A stretch of 64,000 bases of DNA, taken from assembly GCF_000316645.1 (NCBI RefSeq), contig NC_019684.1, forward strand, positions 3,749,501-3,813,500. The letters are read 5' to 3'. The translations under genes were made by a program, and so were the position numbers. Within the stretch, counting starts at the first letter, position 1; each line of letters starts with the position of its first letter. Positions 20,214 through 28,918 of this stretch are shown here, piece by piece. The notes beneath the pieces are model-generated. The model saw only the letters and a program-made list of their open reading frames with translations, was not told the DNA's origin and searched no databases. This stretch comes from Nostoc sp. PCC 7524 (GTDB lineage: Bacteria; Cyanobacteriota; Cyanobacteriia; Cyanobacteriales; Nostocaceae).

Positions 20214-20621
20214 TTACAGAGGATATATAGAAATAACCTTGATGCTTTTAGTTCGATGAATTGATTTTTCGGGTTTTTCATTAGTGATAAACTCTGTAGC
20301 TCCTACAGAGATAGCTGCTGCTATGTGAAGTGCATCCATGACTCCTAAACCTGACTGACTTGCTTGTTGATAGGCTCTTTGAATAATCTGATCAATATCA
20401 TTAGCCCAGTAAGTTACTGAATCAAAAAAGACTTCATAAAATTTAATTTCACTGACTTGTTGATTGTAAATCGCTTTTGGAAGAACCTCAAATTTAAGAA
20501 AGATACTAGAGGCAAAATCACGCTGAGGATCTTCGATAATTTCTAAGGCTTTTTCAGCAATTGAACCTACACCTCTAGCTGCATAAATTAAGACTCCTGA
20601 ATCAAGAAAAGTGCGAATCAT
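20214..20621 (-). CDS. PIN-domain ribonuclease toxin
   Basis: 135 residues. Acidic PIN residues are visible: Asp7 in MIRTFLDSGVLIYAA, Glu in FLKFEVLPKAIY, Asp in GLGVMDALHIAAA, and the terminal FITNEKPE. PIN toxins of VapC type cleave RNA with Mg2+ or Mn2+. It overlaps the preceding small gene by four bases (ATGA), the classic antitoxin-toxin arrangement. It is the last gene of a leftward run starting with the dynamin-like GTPase, so it could also be co-transcribed with that system. Confidence 0.82.
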   Translation of the reverse strand: MIRTFLDSGVLIYAARGVGSIAEKALEIIEDPQRDFASSIFLKFEVLPKAIYNQQVSEIKFYEVFFDSVTYWANDIDQIIQRAYQQASQSGLGVMDALHIAAAISVGATEFITNEKPEKSIHRTKSIKVISIYPL

Positions 20622-20881
20622 TCATCGTCTCCTTGATAGCCACCTCTGCGTTCTGCTTTTTCTCTCTCAACTTCTTCTGCATTGAGTAAAGGAATACCAG
20701 AGTCAACAATCTCTTGACGAATTTGACGCAGTTTTTGTCCTAAAATAGATATTGGTTTAGATAAAGAATTATTGCTTTGAGTTGCTGGAGTAATCACCAA
20801 TTCTACCTCATCCCCTTCTTGGAAAGAGTCTGGTAAATTTTCTAATAAAATAATATTGCGTCCTTGGATATAACCTTTCAT
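20618..20881 (-). CDS. antitoxin partner of PIN toxin
   Basis: 87 residues. The N-terminal half (GYIQGRNIILLENLPDSFQEGDEVELVIT) resembles small beta-barrel antitoxins of the AbrB or DUF104-like kind that bind DNA; the C-terminal half is charged and helical (REKAERRGGYQGDDE) and should wrap the toxin. ATGA overlap with the PIN gene. It starts 33 bp after the stop of the 372-residue gene. Likely autoregulates the pair. Confidence 0.72.
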   Translation of the reverse strand: MKGYIQGRNIILLENLPDSFQEGDEVELVITPATQSNNSLSKPISILGQKLRQIRQEIVDSGIPLLNAEEVEREKAERRGGYQGDDE

Positions 20882-20914: not shown

Positions 20915-22033
20915 CTAGCGTGATGAACGAAAGATAACGCGTCCGGGAATTTCTTCGTTGTTAATTTTGGCATAGACTCGTAGACAGGTTAAAACTTCGC
21001 CTGGGATTCCGCCGCAGTCTAGTTGTAAATCATCTTTGGTTAATGCACAAATGTCAGCATAAATTCCTGTGAGTTGACGGATGCGTACTTCGTAACCGGC
21101 ATTAGTGGCGATCGCCACAATTTTCTTTAAAGCGCGGCGTGATTCTTGTTGCAGTTTACCCCACCAGGAATAACGTTCGGCTGGGGGGACAAATGTTAAG
21201 GAATGTATGGCTTCATCCATGTCAATCCAAGCGCGTAAAATTAACAATGGATCGGCTATTTCTTCGGCTTTTTTGGTGCGCTGGAAACGATCTGTTAATG
21301 CTTCAATATATTGTGTTTTTTGTTCTGGTTGAGAAGATAATGGGATGACATCAAAGCTAAATACACTTTTTAGAGCATGATATAACTCTGGTTCAATTTC
21401 AATAAATTTAATGAATAAAACTAGAAAACCTGCGAGTAAAGTTAATTCTTCTGAAGCATATTCTGAAATAATATTTGTCTGTTCAAAGGCTTTGTGAGAT
21501 AAGCATAATCCAGGAGAAATAACAGTTCCACTTAGTCCAGGGTAGATAATTTCGTCTCTGATGAAGGGTAAATGATAGAGTCGCGAATTATCTGCGATCG
21601 CACCCACTTCTTGCACTAATTCTAAAGCCCGTTGTCGCCAAAATTCCGCCAAATCTTCAGGAACTCGCAACAGTTTGCGGTGGATTTCGTGCCATAAATC
21701 AGCATCTGTTTCACTATATAACGGTGATTCTCCTAAATAAAAACTGAGTTCTGAGTCAGAATCAAATGCAGCGCGGAGATAATCTAGTTTTGATGTAGTG
21801 GGAGGTGGTGTAAAAGCAATTACTTGTTCCTGCTTTTCTTCCTTCACTTCCTCCTTTACCTGTAACAGATAGTGAATCTCACGCAGCACCTCATCACACA
21901 CATCAGCACCAGCATCATGCGGATATTCTGCTTGCGCCTTTTTCAGCGTCGCCTCCAATCCATGCAGACTATACCGCAATACCTGAGCTAATGTTGAGTT
22001 TTCTATTGCTAATAATTTTTTGAAATGCTGCAT
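20915..22033 (-). CDS. unrecognised 372-residue protein of the GTPase-Hsp70-like cluster
   Basis: I do not recognise the family. It is mostly helical, without membrane segments. The first 65 residues (QHFKKLLAIENSTLAQVLRY onward) look like a helical bundle, a short Lys/Glu and Pro/Thr linker follows (about 70-90), and the last 60 residues turn to beta-like sequence ending PGEVLTCLRVYAKINNEEIP. It is the third gene after the GTPase and actin-fold ATPase on the same strand, with a 78-bp gap holding a perfect hairpin. A cofactor or adaptor of the ATPase is a reasonable guess; a nucleotide-exchange role is possible but unsupported. Confidence 0.7.
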   Translation of the reverse strand: MQHFKKLLAIENSTLAQVLRYSLHGLEATLKKAQAEYPHDAGADVCDEVLREIHYLLQVKEEVKEEKQEQVIAFTPPPTTSKLDYLRAAFDSDSELSFYLGESPLYSETDADLWHEIHRKLLRVPEDLAEFWRQRALELVQEVGAIADNSRLYHLPFIRDEIIYPGLSGTVISPGLCLSHKAFEQTNIISEYASEELTLLAGFLVLFIKFIEIEPELYHALKSVFSFDVIPLSSQPEQKTQYIEALTDRFQRTKKAEEIADPLLILRAWIDMDEAIHSLTFVPPAERYSWWGKLQQESRRALKKIVAIATNAGYEVRIRQLTGIYADICALTKDDLQLDCGGIPGEVLTCLRVYAKINNEEIPGRVIFRSSR

Positions 22034-22054
22034 GAGTATAACCTTACTTTATAT

Positions 22055-22106
22055 CTCACGCAAAGATCCTCAGAAAACTCTCTGCGTCTTTGCGCCTTTG
22101 CGTGAG
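22055..22106. repeat. hairpin CTCACGCAAAG / CTTTGCGTGAG inside the cluster
   Basis: Perfect 11-bp arms at 22055-22065 and 22096-22106 surround CTGCGTCTTTGCGC. It lies between the second and third genes of the GTPase-ATPase cluster, where it could reduce read-through or stabilise the upstream mRNA. Confidence 0.7.
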
Positions 22107-22111
22107 GTTTC

Positions 22112-25100
22112 TCAGTGTATACCGGAAAAAGGATCGCGTTCTTTATCAACCTCATTCGGCTGTAAATCCAACTCGCCACAGTAGACGCATCCTTCCTGTG
22201 TCAAACATTCTAAATCTGGTGATGTCCAGTAAGGTACATCGCCTGCATGGATACGCAGCATACCGCGATCGTCAATAGTGACACGATATTGACAGGGATA
22301 ATCTGTGTTGACATCAGGTTTTTTCAATGCACCAATACGTATCCACTTTTTAGTATTAGTTTCCATATCGGTTTGGTACATATAAAACGTGTGCTGATTA
22401 GCGTAGGGAAAGGGAGGCAGAGGATTACTAATTAAACCGCTTCCTGGTTCGCGCATACCATCACGTAAATAATGGAATTGTTGCAGAGGTTTGCTACCAT
22501 CTTTATCGACTTCAAATACCAAATGATAAGCATCGGGATGATCAACGGTGGCTGATTCGATGACGTTGACGGCGATATCACCATCGTTTAAGTCTTTATA
22601 AGGACGTTCGACGGCGATATTCCATTGCAATTTCCCGTTAGCAAATAATGATGTTGCTGAAACTTGTGATAATGCTGCGCTAATATCAATTCCGGGAACA
22701 TCTATTAAGTAATGGGGATTTCCTTGACACAATAAAACATTAAATTGCAGGGTTTGGTCAATCTCAAACTGGACTTTGATTTTTTTCAGGAACTCCCCTT
22801 CCTCCATTCTCAATTGTTCCATCAGGTGTTTACCGTCGAAGCTACCCCATAGGCGTAAGTCTCCATCCTCGTAGTCTTGGCGGTAAATGATGTTAGTTAA
22901 CTGTATCCCTAACCAGTTGGTTCGCACTTTGGCGACGTTTTCTGAGGGTGAGAGTTGATAGAGTTCCTGTCCAGCTTTGAAGACTGTCAGGAGTTCGTTG
23001 CTTTGGGTTTTGCGTTTAAAGTTGCAGGGTAGGTAATAAAATAGGTTTTTAACGTCTATTTCTAACTGGTTTGCGCCTTTACGTAACAATCCTTTCGATT
23101 CTTCGGGGTCAAATCTTAATCTTCGTAATTTCTCAGCGTAACAAGCACCGGCTGAGGTGGCGAGTTTGGTGTACTCCAAAACAAAGGTGATGCGCTCAGG
23201 ATTCCAAACAAAGTAAGGAGATTTGCTAAATTCTTGGTAAATCTGGCGTTGTACTAAGTCGAGATTACAAGTTTTACCGGAGAGAATTAACCAATCAACT
23301 TTATGGGTATTCCAGGGATCTATATTGTTGCTGTCAGGACGTAAACGGCTTTCCATTAAACCTTTTGCAATCCCAATTGCTTCTTTGATAGCGGAGGAAG
23401 CGGCGCGTTCAAATTGTTGACTATCTAAAGTGACGCAAATACTTTCAGAGTTTCTTACCTGGAATTTAATTGCACTTTGGGTGAGAAGTTCCGCAATTTG
23501 CTGTTCGGAAATGTTGAAAGTTAAGAGGGAATTATCAGGTTTCTGACCAAGTTTAAGTTTAGCAGTTTCCGCATGATCCCAAAGGGTGTAAAAGGTTTGC
23601 AGGCGTTGGGGTGCTTGTTGCCAACGGGTGGGGATGACTTTTTCGGCGGTATCTAACGCGTCTTTATAAGCTGCATCACCTTCGGGATTTTCTTTATCAA
23701 CACATTTTAATAAACTACCGCTTTTGAATTTACCTTGTTCTAAAAAGCGTTCATTTAATTCAGCGTTGATTAAGTCTTCTAGTTTGTCGCTTTCGATGTC
23801 GCCTCTGGTAACGGCTGTGAGTAAAAAGTCAGCGATCGCAACTTTCAATAATCTAAATATTCTCAGGGTAATTAACTCACCACCTAACTGTAAATGTCCC
23901 GAAGAACCTAACAATTTCGGAGTCAATTTATAATAACGTCCTCCTAAACCCCGGTCTTCATGATTAGCAAAGTAGGGAGTATTATCTTCTAAGGTAAGTT
24001 CAATTAATGCTAAATCTGTTGTGCCGCCACCAATATCTAGAACTAGAACATTTTGTGACCATTTATTGTTTTCTTGGCGACAACGGGTTTTAAAAGATTC
24101 AATCCCAATATTCAAATTCCCGCCAAATTCTCGCCATAAAAAGAAGATGGCAACAGAAACAGCTTCATCGTAAGCTGTTTGTACGTCATCAATCCCCAAT
24201 TGTTCGACTAATTGTTTAACTTCTTTCCTGACTACAGGCGGTGCGACGGTGGGATAGGTGACAACGGCTGTTAAAAAATCTCCTTCGGAAAATCTGCGTC
24301 TAGCGCGTTGACGATAATCTTCTGTTAATTCGATTAAATGCGCCCATGCTGCTTGGATGAGTTGGTTAACATTAATAATATCTTCTTCGCCATCCAATAT
24401 CACGGAAAAATTTCTATCTTGTCCAAAATAACGTTTGGGTGAATGGTGAAATCTGCTAATAATTTCTTTTAAAGAACTGCTGGTTCCTTGGGCAATCGCT
24501 TTCTTTCTGTTATCCCTAGCTTCCCTACCCATGCGAAGTTTTAACGCTTCTAAACTAGAAACTTCTAACTCACTAGGTATCTCCGTATCCCGACGATCAA
24601 CATCTAAAACTACGGGAATTAAATTCTGGGATTCTAATGTCGGGACGCGGAAGACTTCATGATAAATTTGGTACAGTTTTTTGCTGACGGCGCGACGAAA
24701 TCTATCACTGTTACCTAAACATAATTCAATTTGGCGAATTGCTTCTAAAAATCTTGGTTTATGATCACTGCTAAAAACTTCACTTAAATTACTCGGTTCA
24801 ATTTCTAGGTTTTTACTAATATCAACAATAAACTTTTCCCACTCACTGCCATTCACTTCTGGTAACGCTACAGCAGCCGGAGAACTCAACCACTGGGAGA
24901 GGCGATCGCGTAATCTAATTTCCTGTTCTCTAGGTAAAACTTCCGCAATTGGCACTTCAATTGGGTCGAACAGTGTCACTGTAGAATTTGATGTGCCGAA
25001 ATCTACCGCCAACCATCCCGGAAATCGTTTTTTAGGTTTACCGTTGCCATTGCTTGGCTTTTCACTATAGTTACGAATTTCAAACGGATTGCTCCCTGAA

Positions 25101-25507
25101 TTATTTGGTATTTTTTGTTCCATAGGTAGTGACCACAGATGACAATAAGCTGCTACTTTTTGTCTTACAGATAATAGTGGATTACCTGAGTGATCAGAAT
25201 CGAAATATTCCACCATTACCCGTAAATGACAGTTGATTGCTTGTATTAATGGTTGATCTAATTTACAAGGATATTGTTCTAATTGACCAATTTGAGAAAT
25301 TTTTGGTGTATCAGAATCAAACTTTTTATACGCCTGTTGAATTTTAGTTGCTAATTCACTTGGTATGCCTTTGACAGTGCAGTTGATACGGGAAATATGA
25401 GGTACATTGTTACCAGAAGCAAGTAGTTGAATACTTGGTAATTCTAAATACTTCCTATGATTAACTCGCACTTGAAAGCGAGGCACAAGTTGAATCTCTA
25501 CAGGCAT
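22112..25507 (-). CDS. large actin/Hsp70-fold ATPase, SrfB-like
   Basis: 1131 residues. An N-terminal region of about 165 residues unlike Hsp70 and a short Gly/Lys/Asn linker precede an actin-like ATPase core: phosphate-1 loop VDFGTSNS (168-175), phosphate-2 loop LDIGGGTTDLALIEL (about 490-504), LGGELIT near 541 and adenosine motif LILSGKTCNLD (about 740-750). About 330 C-terminal residues follow with no DnaK-type substrate domain and a CxxC (CVYC) near the end. The architecture recalls SrfB of the enterobacterial srfABC operon. It starts 58 bp downstream of the dynamin-like GTPase gene, so the two are almost certainly co-expressed. Role unknown. Confidence 0.8.
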   Translation of the reverse strand: MPVEIQLVPRFQVRVNHRKYLELPSIQLLASGNNVPHISRINCTVKGIPSELATKIQQAYKKFDSDTPKISQIGQLEQYPCKLDQPLIQAINCHLRVMVEYFDSDHSGNPLLSVRQKVAAYCHLWSLPMEQKIPNNSGSNPFEIRNYSEKPSNGNGKPKKRFPGWLAVDFGTSNSTVTLFDPIEVPIAEVLPREQEIRLRDRLSQWLSSPAAVALPEVNGSEWEKFIVDISKNLEIEPSNLSEVFSSDHKPRFLEAIRQIELCLGNSDRFRRAVSKKLYQIYHEVFRVPTLESQNLIPVVLDVDRRDTEIPSELEVSSLEALKLRMGREARDNRKKAIAQGTSSSLKEIISRFHHSPKRYFGQDRNFSVILDGEEDIINVNQLIQAAWAHLIELTEDYRQRARRRFSEGDFLTAVVTYPTVAPPVVRKEVKQLVEQLGIDDVQTAYDEAVSVAIFFLWREFGGNLNIGIESFKTRCRQENNKWSQNVLVLDIGGGTTDLALIELTLEDNTPYFANHEDRGLGGRYYKLTPKLLGSSGHLQLGGELITLRIFRLLKVAIADFLLTAVTRGDIESDKLEDLINAELNERFLEQGKFKSGSLLKCVDKENPEGDAAYKDALDTAEKVIPTRWQQAPQRLQTFYTLWDHAETAKLKLGQKPDNSLLTFNISEQQIAELLTQSAIKFQVRNSESICVTLDSQQFERAASSAIKEAIGIAKGLMESRLRPDSNNIDPWNTHKVDWLILSGKTCNLDLVQRQIYQEFSKSPYFVWNPERITFVLEYTKLATSAGACYAEKLRRLRFDPEESKGLLRKGANQLEIDVKNLFYYLPCNFKRKTQSNELLTVFKAGQELYQLSPSENVAKVRTNWLGIQLTNIIYRQDYEDGDLRLWGSFDGKHLMEQLRMEEGEFLKKIKVQFEIDQTLQFNVLLCQGNPHYLIDVPGIDISAALSQVSATSLFANGKLQWNIAVERPYKDLNDGDIAVNVIESATVDHPDAYHLVFEVDKDGSKPLQQFHYLRDGMREPGSGLISNPLPPFPYANQHTFYMYQTDMETNTKKWIRIGALKKPDVNTDYPCQYRVTIDDRGMLRIHAGDVPYWTSPDLECLTQEGCVYCGELDLQPNEVDKERDPFSGIH

Positions 25508-25565
25508 TTTTTATCTTCCTTAACAGGCCAAACCAGTCAGCAGTAAATTTAGGGCTAATTACTGA

Positions 25566-28118
25566 TTACTGATTAGCCGTTAGAGAATCAGAAATATTAG
25601 CAATTTCTGTGAGATTCTGTAGCCAAGTGGGAACGGCTACACCCGATTGGGAGTCACCAGCCGCAATAAATCTCAGCAAGCTATCTTTTTTCGAGAGGTT
25701 TTGTAAAGTGGGAATAATTTGATCCAAAATACCCTCTAATTCTGAATTGACTTGTTGATTAACTTCGCTGACATACTGTACCAGATGTAAGCTAGCACTG
25801 GCAGTAATTTCATCACGTAATCGTAATACAAATAACTGGTGATTAGCTGCCCTTGGTAGACCTTGATTTTTTTCTGGCGACCAATCAAAGATTTGACCAA
25901 TATTGTGTTTTTCATCCTGACGCGCCAGAGGAAAGATAACTTCCGGGAGAAGAGATTTATCTTGTTGATTTATCTCCTCTAAAATTACGTCTTGCCATTT
26001 ATTGGGGTCGCATCCTAACAGCAATTGATAAAATAAATCGGCTTCTTCCGGGCCAAATTTTGCCTCAATCTCTTGTTCCATTTCTGGTGTCAAAATTGTC
26101 AAGAGTTGATCGCGCTCTGGGGCAATGTAGTGAGATAATTGACTGAGTAAGTCTACTACAGCCTGACGGATGCGATCGCGAGCAAATTCTTCTAATTCTT
26201 TGACTGTCTTGGCAAAGGCTGGATAAAAATCATCGCTTTTGGTCGGGATGCTGTTATTAGTCCTATTACCCCGGTCAAATAACTTACCTGCTGCACCTTT
26301 TGATTCTGCTAATGTAATTGTGCCATTGTTGACTTTGTTAAATAATAAAGTCCACTGACTCCAATTAATCACGCTAAAAGTCAATTCGTCTTTGACAACA
26401 TCACTAACCACCGTTCCGCGACGGTCTTTAAGTGGTTGTGTCCCTAAATCTTTTTGAAAATTACGGTAGATTTTATCTAAACTTTCAATGGCATTTCGCA
26501 AGTCAATTAAAGCCTGACTGTCGCCGGTGGGAATCCCTTGGGCATGAATTTCAGCAATAATGCTTTTGAGGTTTTCTTGTTGTAGTTGTAAATTCTCAGC
26601 TGCACGACGGGTATCTTCATACAGTTGCTTCAATCCATGAGTGGCGACGTGATTTTGAATCAATTCCCGCAGTTTGGCAATGCCCCCATCTTGAGCGAAG
26701 TAACCCAACTTCCGCCCTAAATGGTGACGTGCATCTGATTCTAACAGGCGATCGCTCAACCTGCGCCATTTTTGTTGTAGTCGCTTTGACCTTTCTAGAT
26801 ACTCAGGATAATCCAAGTTCGCTAAAAACTCCGGTGAACCAGCTTTCACACTACTTGAACGTTTGGCTAATTCCGCTAACCCCAACAAAGGAGATAGTAA
26901 AACGATGCGGTCTTGATTAATCGTAAATGCACTTGCACCGTCGATGGTGGTTTGTAAAACCTTGAGCTTTCGCAACACCATCTCAGCTGTGAGGTGGGGA
27001 GTGTGAGTGTCATCGATGAGTAAATCTAATTCCCGTTCACCACCTTCACTTTCTAAAGGTAACTGGTCAAACCGTCCCACACCCACGAGAATTAAATCCT
27101 TGAGTTCTTGTCCCGGACGCTGTTGCTGCATCATCGTGAAAATTTTGTTGGCGCGATCGCTCCCCGGTGATTTACCATTCAGAAGAACCAAAATTGTCTG
27201 GACTTCCGCCAATTCCCGTAGCGATAAAAATGTATCCCTCGCGCCAGAGTTCGCTGCCCCCAAACCCGGAAAATCTAGCAGAATAAATTTATTAGCACCT
27301 GTAACATCCCAAATTTCTTGAGAGATTTTAACTTCAATATCAATACGCCGAATTAAGGGAAAACTATTTTGTAATAACTTGGTGAGTAGCTTTTGGGGTG
27401 GACTTGGTAGACGAATATGTGCGGACGGTAAATCTTCAAAGCGCAGGGTTTGGATAGCCATTGGCTGTTCTGCTAACTGTAACCCATCACGCGCCGTTGC
27501 GGCATCAATTTCGTAGCGTTTACCACACAAAGCTTCGCCATAGGAACTGTAGGCGCGGACAAACAACACCAACTCTCGCAGCAGATAACGCAATTCTAAG
27601 TTATTGCTGCTCTTCCAAGTTTCTTCACACCAGCTAAGAATCTCTTTCCCAGAATTGAGTTTAGCGACTGGGATGGGGGGAAGTCCGGCTGCTATGGTAC
27701 ACTGGTTAGCTTCCCCCAACATGAAGCGCAAGCACTCATTCACCCCTTCCCGACTCAAATAGTCCACAGTAAAGTTGCCTACCTGTGTTGTTGAGTAACC
27801 CTCTTGGGGGATGATATGAATAGCGGTGACGTTCCCCGTTGTAGGATTTTCACTAATGGGTAAAGCATCGCCATAACCAATTAAGCTGCCTAAAAGTAAA
27901 GTTTTGCCACTACTAAACTCTCCCATTACCCCAATTTTTACAGGTGAAGTAGCAAGACCTACAGTTTTCTCAGCAGCTTCTCGGAGACGCAAAATACATT
28001 CATCTAAGCTAGTAGGAACCCAATCTTCTTGTTTAGAAGGATTTTGAGGTACTGAATCAATTTTTTGCAGAATTAGTTCACCGTATTCTTTAAAACGTCG
28101 CAGTTTTTCTGGCTCCAT
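25566..28118 (-). CDS. dynamin-like large GTPase, SrfC-like
   Basis: 850 residues. GTPase motifs are spread as in bacterial dynamins: P-loop GEFSSGKT (66-73), switch-I TTGNVTAI (93-100), G3 LLDFPGLGA (280-288) and a degenerate G4 GRFD (348-351) instead of NKxD. Unusually, about 185 residues separate G2 from G3, with a helical insertion. The rest is long alpha helix (about 430-850) that could form stalk or membrane-tip regions; no clear transmembrane helix is seen. It is the first gene of the leftward cluster and is followed 58 bp later by the actin-fold ATPase. This pairing resembles SrfC plus SrfB. Function unknown; membrane remodelling or defence are possibilities only. Confidence 0.8.
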   Translation of the reverse strand: MEPEKLRRFKEYGELILQKIDSVPQNPSKQEDWVPTSLDECILRLREAAEKTVGLATSPVKIGVMGEFSSGKTLLLGSLIGYGDALPISENPTTGNVTAIHIIPQEGYSTTQVGNFTVDYLSREGVNECLRFMLGEANQCTIAAGLPPIPVAKLNSGKEILSWCEETWKSSNNLELRYLLRELVLFVRAYSSYGEALCGKRYEIDAATARDGLQLAEQPMAIQTLRFEDLPSAHIRLPSPPQKLLTKLLQNSFPLIRRIDIEVKISQEIWDVTGANKFILLDFPGLGAANSGARDTFLSLRELAEVQTILVLLNGKSPGSDRANKIFTMMQQQRPGQELKDLILVGVGRFDQLPLESEGGERELDLLIDDTHTPHLTAEMVLRKLKVLQTTIDGASAFTINQDRIVLLSPLLGLAELAKRSSSVKAGSPEFLANLDYPEYLERSKRLQQKWRRLSDRLLESDARHHLGRKLGYFAQDGGIAKLRELIQNHVATHGLKQLYEDTRRAAENLQLQQENLKSIIAEIHAQGIPTGDSQALIDLRNAIESLDKIYRNFQKDLGTQPLKDRRGTVVSDVVKDELTFSVINWSQWTLLFNKVNNGTITLAESKGAAGKLFDRGNRTNNSIPTKSDDFYPAFAKTVKELEEFARDRIRQAVVDLLSQLSHYIAPERDQLLTILTPEMEQEIEAKFGPEEADLFYQLLLGCDPNKWQDVILEEINQQDKSLLPEVIFPLARQDEKHNIGQIFDWSPEKNQGLPRAANHQLFVLRLRDEITASASLHLVQYVSEVNQQVNSELEGILDQIIPTLQNLSKKDSLLRFIAAGDSQSGVAVPTWLQNLTEIANISDSLTANQ

Positions 28119-28918
28119 AGCGTAGCCTTCCGCTAAGATAATTTTCTGTGAGTTTTATAACACAAAAAAACGTCGGCAAGTGCCTATTTTGCCAGTTGTA
28201 TAGTAGTCTACTTTAATTTTCAACCTTAAAGGGTGTTTGAAAAGTGTTCGGCTGTGACTTTAAGTACATTCAGATCCCCCCTACCTTAAAAAGGGGGGAA
28301 TAAGAATCAAAGTCCCTCTTTTTAAGGGGAGCCACTGCGTTGGGCGGGTTCCCCAACTTATAGCAAGTGGCGTGGATTTAGGGGTATCTAAAAATATTTG
28401 CTACATCATTAGAGACTTTTCAAACATCCTCTTAATTGTGTAGTCAGGTAATAGGTAATAGGCACTCTTGTAATCAGAAATAATCCTGTTTGATTTGTGT
28501 CTAGTTTTGCAAAAATTAACTCTGAGAAATAACTTTTTTGCATATTTTAGATAATTATTAGTTGATTCATCACTCATTACTCGCTACTCATTACTCATAA
28601 CTCATTATTCACTACCCATTTAATATCTGACTGACGCACCCTACTAACTAATTTACGTATTTTCACTAATACTTTATTAATTAGCATGAATTAATATAAT
28701 GTAAAATCTTCAGATTAGTACATTTAATAATATAATATAGCGATCCGATTTTATTCCTGAGATTATTTGCTTAGGCAGGCAATAGGCACTCTGACAATTA
28801 AATAAAATTCCCGGATTAAATCAAGATTTATATATTTTCTGAAGGATGTTGAATTATTTGAAAAAAGCCTTGCTTCAGATGTTATTAAAAATCATTAATG
28901 AATTAGGTTTTAAATTAA
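28119..28918. other. 800-bp divergent intergenic region
   Basis: Holds the promoters of the GTPase cluster (left) and of the PAS/GAF kinase (right), a complete MITE-like element (28226-28434), a half copy of the palindromic repeat (ACTGACGCACCC, 28630-28641), and AATAGGC and CATTACT-type heptamers. No ORF or RNA gene was recognised. Confidence 0.55.
28226..28434. mobile_element. MITE-like element, complete copy
   Basis: Terminal inverted repeats of about 20 bp: AAAGGGTGTTTGAAAAGT at 28228-28245 and ACTTTTCAAACATCCTCTTA at 28415-28434. The interior carries two opposed CCCCTTTTTAA/TTAAAAAGGGG blocks and no ORF. The left end recurs at 41067 and 47649, showing a mobile family. The transposase source is not in the window. 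Confidence 0.7.

Follow-up and report, generated by a model that had tools for sequence, protein, structure and literature searches.

A family-wide gene trio of Nostocaceae encoding a predicted dynamin-like GTPase, a probable Hsp70-type ATPase and a protein with a predicted GrpE-like domain: a possible membrane-remodelling module

The three-gene locus and its proteins

A cluster of three genes encoding a dynamin-like GTPase, a large ATPase and an orphan protein of 372 amino acids was analysed in Nostoc sp. PCC 7524, a member of the Nostocaceae with a genome of 6.7 Mb in which the ATPase gene is single copy. The window is the full 64,000-nucleotide stretch of this genome that holds the cluster, and not the cluster itself. 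All three genes lie on the minus strand, are separated by gaps of 58 and 78 bp and follow each other in transcription as GTPase, ATPase and 372-amino-acid protein (genes 1, 2 and 3). Re-reading of the sequence confirmed the three leftward genes, the gaps, the coordinates and the motifs given by a first-pass annotation. The genes are intact, and matches to genes 1, 2 and 3 in 140, 139 and 139, respectively, of 145 Nostocaceae genomes, each searched with each of the three proteins, indicate conserved genes and not chance frames.

25566..28118, minus strand: gene 1, open reading frame (ORF), dynamin-like GTPase, 850 amino acids
22112..25507, minus strand: gene 2, ORF, large ATPase, probably of Hsp70 type, 1131 amino acids
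20915..22033, minus strand: gene 3, ORF, orphan of 372 amino acids, with a helical body and a beta C-terminal domain in the structural model

The predicted structure of gene 1 combines a GTPase domain, a helical bundle and a stalk, as in the dynamin superfamily, which bears out the initial proposal of a dynamin-like GTPase and makes this fold practically certain as far as a model can tell. The G1 P-loop GEFSSGKT and the G3 motif DFPG (DxxG), both noticed at first pass, are present, and each is conserved in all 33 aligned sequences. By eye, no canonical G4 motif (N/TKxD) appears between residues 58 and 420 of the window protein, and at the likely place of G4 all 33 sequences share G[VIM]GRF[DN]. 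The best structural matches are the cyanobacterial dynamin-like proteins SynDLP and BDLP, which have the GTPase domain and the long helical stalk in common with gene 1 but only about 13% identity. The predicted local distance difference test score (pLDDT) falls below 50 at residues 587-629, between helices 571-584 and 628-664, and W586 and W589 are invariant across the 33 sequences, so that the loop carrying them between two long helices may be a membrane-contact tip. Homologues of gene 1 are often named "proteasome protein" in databases, a label that nothing found here explains.

27900..27923, minus strand: P-loop GEFSSGKT, residues 66-73, read in the sequence (G....GK[ST] in 33/33)
27264..27275, minus strand: G3 motif DFPG, residues 282-285 (33/33)
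26232..26363, minus strand: loop modelled with low confidence and holding the invariant W586 and W589, candidate membrane-contact tip (model and alignment)

Gene 2 carries the phosphate-1, phosphate-2 and adenosine motifs in the order typical of Hsp70/actin ATPases, in agreement with the DFGTSNS, DIGGGTTD and adenosine motifs read earlier, the third being of the LSGKT type. Comparison of its profile with the four DnaKs of the same genome (hhalign) gave a probability of 92.25 and an E-value of 5.7e-7 over 179 columns, spanning phosphate 2 through the adenosine motif, whereas phosphate 1, although correctly placed in the order, aligned only in a weak segment of its own (probability 2.8). The score of 64.7 was not approached by any of 40 column-shuffled DnaK decoys (at most 28.1). 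The actin/Hsp70-fold ATPase proposed at first thus gains, beside its motifs, a nucleotide-binding domain that this profile comparison places in the Hsp70 type. One result calls for caution: when single sequences are compared, MreB (43.8 over 72 columns) does about as well as DnaK (44.4 over 262), while the genome's 532-amino-acid Hsp70-like protein reaches 61.6 over 152. Our confidence that gene 2 is of Hsp70 type, and not another actin-fold ATPase, was therefore lowered from near certainty to a good probability. At 1131 amino acids, gene 2 also differs from DnaK by an extra N-terminal part and by the part following the ATPase domain, in which hhalign against DnaK aligned nothing with the Hsp70 substrate-binding half. 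A stretch within residues 486-774 presumably corresponds to lobe IIB, where GrpE binds in DnaK. Database names of gene 2 homologues are either "virulence factor SrfB" or "molecular chaperone". Part of the family (L031, L032, L037, L042 and others) has an ATPase without the first 120-160 residues, and the gap preceding the shortened gene exceeds 1 kb in some, for example L031.

24980..25003, minus strand: phosphate-1 motif DFGTSNST, residues 169-176 (32/32)
24014..24037, minus strand: phosphate-2 motif DIGGGTTD, residues 491-498 (31/32)
23264..23284, minus strand: adenosine-type motif LSGKTCN, residues 742-748 (30/32), aligned with the adenosine region of DnaK
23186..24052, minus strand: DnaK-aligned region, residues 486-774 against about 188-366 of DnaK (hhalign, 179 columns)

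Gene 3, which had been annotated as belonging to no recognised family, has 438 relatives at E<=1e-3 and indeed found no sequence family in Pfam: the window protein matched none at E<=10, PF01025 (GrpE) included, and PF01025 is absent among the 25 of 26 families shown for 37 gene 3 members at E<=1. Attempts to demonstrate kinship with GrpE by sequence failed. A point that the first-pass annotation did not hold comes from the structural model (mean pLDDT 89.7, predicted template modelling score 0.74), in which the C-terminal domain is predicted to be GrpE-like: the wing superposes on GrpE/GrpEL1 at 2.7-2.9 Å over 57-58 residues, and GrpE chains occupy ranks 1, 3, 17 and 21 of the Foldseek list with the wing covered end to end. 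The likeness to GrpE/GrpEL1 concerns this wing, whereas a GrpE-type dimer stalk is not established for the helical part. On the strength of the predicted fold, we consider the chances evenly balanced that gene 3 acts as an exchange factor.

20918..21097, minus strand: C-terminal wing of gene 3 resembling that of GrpE, residues 313-372 (predicted structure)

The second GrpE-like gene of the genome was considered as part of a sister module and rejected, as no Hsp70-like or dynamin gene was read among neighbouring ORFs of at least 120 amino acids. A divergent GrpE (L139:7689-8399, plus strand; C2:1115286 in the genome itself) has by eye an N-terminal helix-turn-helix look, and its relatives in L144 and L146 show a membrane-like N-terminus instead.

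Distribution and co-inheritance

All three genes were matched in 139 of the 145 Nostocaceae genomes, none in five and the GTPase only in one (G270, 89% complete). Among the matches, G159 is counted although it holds broken or partial pieces of the three genes, several with stops. The trio is thus near-core in the family, in line with the core role considered at first pass. The five genomes devoid of the trio (G155, G164, G165, G179 and G213) span four genera, and the congeners G204 and G228 of G165 have the full set, so that joint loss must have happened more than once. Similarly, all three genes are present in G051, G152, G162, G224 and G233 although one has been moved or inverted, and physical linkage therefore does not explain their co-retention.

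Gene order is conserved as well, which had been proposed as a check on the cluster. Among 60 fetched regions, 50 contain the complete trio. In each of these 50, the genes share a strand and run GTPase, ATPase, orphan; most spacings are of 50-400 bp, and a few reach kilobases. The remaining 10 regions contain one or two of the genes, owing to dispersal, breakage or location on a different contig. A pattern scan with the gene 3 alignment of one genome from each of 84,980 species returned 178 relatives. Among the best 80 of these, 69 contigs have the trio in order with gaps below 1.5 kb, another seven keep this order over wider gaps and four stop at a contig edge, the order being the same in 76/76 assessable contigs.

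Distance correlations between the protein trees of 47 triads and the window are 0.986, 0.954 and 0.962; midpoint rooting recovers one and the same 14-member clade in all three. In each tree, the two full triads of G243 fall on opposite sides. Since shared phylogeny adds to tree correlations, the case for one unit is better made by the joint losses and the double triads. From these observations, it is very likely that the three proteins form one functional unit.

Two sets of the trio occur in G149 and in four of the six sampled genomes of genus g101 (G208, G243, G254 and G265); one of the two GTPases of G208 is broken, and G243 (L053, L054) is the only genome with both sets in the trees.

Both searches with gene 2 found it in Nostocaceae only: the single protein matched 19 of 146 genomes taken phylum-wide, and a profile of 32 members matched 32 of 292 cyanobacterial genomes, with none outside the family in either case. 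Gene 3 was searched in the family sample and in the pattern scan. In the latter, 78 of the best 80 of the 178 relatives have titles that we take to name Nostocales; the remaining two are an "uncultured cyanobacterium" (L235) and Plectonema radiosum (L236). The Plectonema contig (strain NIES-515), assigned to Oscillatoriales by NCBI, carries the three genes in order and is either misnamed or a carrier outside the heterocyst formers. We take Nostocaceae to be a heterocyst-forming family and Oscillatoriales to be non-heterocystous, the Plectonema title being an exception.

The same module outside Nostocaceae was sought and rejected: the gene 2 profile had no match there, and the GTPase profile gave seven weak matches limited to the P-loop. 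The regions of the nine weak GTPase matches (these seven and two inside the family) contain no ORF of at least 150 amino acids that matches the gene 2, gene 3 or DnaK profiles. Next to these other cyanobacterial dynamin-like GTPases, a divergently placed ORF of 421-537 amino acids adjoins in seven of the nine regions (L263-L267, L269 and L271).

A putative membrane-remodelling module and its alternatives

The interpretation that we favour, with a probability of about 0.5, is that the trio is a family-wide membrane-remodelling module of Nostocaceae, in which a dynamin works with an Hsp70-type ATPase and an exchange factor dedicated to it. The gene 1 GTPase would probably assemble on a cyanobacterial membrane and then shape, fuse or pinch it. 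The gene 2 ATPase would probably act on the GTPase, for example by taking the polymer off the membrane, and the gene 3 wing, as its modelled structure suggests, would probably bind the ATPase domain of gene 2, eject adenosine diphosphate and reset the ATPase. That gene 2 acts as a chaperone on the GTPase polymer is a tentative proposal. In eukaryotes, Hsc70 and its partners are described as removing clathrin coats (available text of PMC4436892), and remodelling or removal of a polymer by the Hsp70-type ATPase would parallel this uncoating. Rather speculatively, the trio may be a bacterial counterpart of the eukaryotic coat- and dynamin-recycling chaperone, fixed early in Nostocaceae, in which a purpose-built Hsp70 and a GrpE-fold exchange factor would take apart a membrane-borne dynamin polymer. 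If so, divergence would have left the fold of gene 3 as the only mark of an exchange factor, and the enterobacterial srfABC might share the same construction.

The switch-off and recycling of bacterial dynamins appear to be little described, and the trio is a concrete, genetically tractable system in this respect; the proposed reading also offers a function for a protein family without one and hints that a membrane-chaperone machine may include the products of genes now named "virulence factor SrfB". Within the available main texts, "chaperone" is absent from the LeoABC and SynDLP papers (PMC4159319, PMC10104851), nor is a partner of this kind mentioned in the accessible parts of work on dynamins from cyanobacteria (PMC9950537, PMC5827413, PMC10104851). 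In the PubMed Central literature available, no work combining "bacterial dynamin", GrpE and Hsp70 was found, two papers contain both dynamin-like and heterocyst, the listed titles and abstract openings include none joining bacterial SrfB with dynamin-like proteins, and "virulence factor SrfB" together with cyanobacteria returned general works only.

The closest competitor, somewhat short of even odds, is that gene 3 is a scaffold or adaptor whose likeness to GrpE is a chance resemblance between small beta domains, the ATPase being a switch by which the GTPase is brought to a membrane site. The repeated rank of GrpE chains in the Foldseek list, the complete coverage of the wing and the adjoining Hsp70-type gene argue against it. 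A kinship with srfABC, suggested at first pass, would make the trio a remote branch with an older, shared non-virulence function, the GTPase standing for SrfC, gene 2 for SrfB and gene 3 for SrfA. The make-up and sizes of the trio resemble those of srfABC, which presumably consists likewise of a large actin/Hsp70-fold protein, a large GTPase and a third protein, and PF07520 (SrfB) does match 32 of 32 gene 2 proteins at E<=0.01. In favour of it too, the part of PMC6950479 available reports srfABC as widespread in alpha-, beta- and gammaproteobacteria; it describes the operon as cytotoxic in Xenorhabdus. However, this match is local, covering about 75 of 992 profile positions, and in the window protein (residues 437-509) it remains below the cut-off (24.3 against 27.1 bits); with neighbours added in the genome search, it reached 27.1 bits, given as over the cut-off. 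The model matches 15 of 98 cyanobacterial genomes, all Nostocaceae, and just three over the cut-off with neighbours added. A SrfC-like family, which Pfam presumably includes, was hit by none of 33 GTPases at E<=0.1. The order GTPase, SrfB-like, orphan is moreover the reverse of A-B-C, and the trio is near-core in a cyanobacterial family. Of the proposed resemblance, a borderline local match was seen and no SrfC counterpart was detected among these Pfam hits; common descent with srfABC is rather unlikely, and srfABC offers at most a remote and weak parallel.

The confinement of gene 2 matches to a presumably heterocyst-forming family could also point to membrane remodelling during heterocyst differentiation, an explanation we regard as improbable. 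A single clade cannot separate phylogeny from phenotype, the Plectonema contig assigned to Oscillatoriales has the three genes in order, and NtcA-type sites upstream are at chance level. The trio-less genomes are probably diazotrophs too, because nifH was seen in all five (intact in two, in two pieces in two and as a single piece in one). The available main text of PMC4365693, which has tables of heterocyst-specific genes, mentions neither dynamin nor SrfB, and its Table 6 gives unknowns by Anabaena tags.

Anti-phage defence by means of a dynamin is very improbable. A dynamin of Bacillus subtilis reportedly gives phage resistance, as known from a title alone in a reference list, and gene 1 weakly matches LeoA of PADLOC (1.3e-5, 22.5 bits). 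Against this, the trio is near-core and its gene trees are congruent. Mobile or viral carriage was rejected with gene 2 as query, which had no match in the plasmid collection and no relative among 12 viral-contig pattern matches. The phage-related role raised at first pass is thus left without a link to phages or mobile elements on this query, the sole sign of mobility seen being a GTPase homologue (P0278) that annotation places on a plasmid of 1.78 Mb in Nostoc linckia NIES-25. LeoABC itself resembles the trio as an operon of bacterial dynamins, but LeoA, LeoB and LeoC are each described as dynamins, and neither Hsp70 nor chaperones are mentioned in the accessible main text of that paper (PMC4159319). 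Taken as a whole, the interpretation of the first-pass annotation is partly supported.

Upstream region and neighbouring genes

A conserved element precedes gene 1 and is likely a promoter -10 region.

28143..28162, minus strand: conserved element TGTTATAAAACTCACAGAAA, 25-44 nt before the GTPase start

With at most four mismatches, TGTTATAAANCTCACAGNAA occurs in 26 of 55 upstream regions, against 0.18% of mononucleotide shuffles, and sits 43-45 nt (in one case 40 nt) ahead of the start of gene 1. All 26 regions bearing it belong to genomes with a GTPase at least 74% identical to that of the window, and some such genomes are without it (L048, L049 and L080). A regulon sharing the element was rejected, with 15 places in the genome at up to three mismatches against 16 for the reversed control. 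Control by NtcA was rejected similarly: a GTAN8TAC site lies 93 nt upstream in the window, but only 4 of 54 upstream regions have one, where shuffling predicts 6.6. A general promoter scan gave no excess either (16 matches against 21.7 in shuffles).

Beyond the orphan, at 33 bp, lie an ORF of 87 amino acids and a PIN-domain protein of 135 amino acids (PF01850; window 20214-20881, minus strand), a toxin-antitoxin-like pair; among the 60 regions (E<=1e-5), the PIN gene was found in none and the 87-amino-acid gene in L028 only. Elsewhere, nifH is in two pieces in G091, G165 and G213, as if interrupted by an element, and the genome of the window has, apart from its intact nifH, a second, split one at C2:1388352-1394879.

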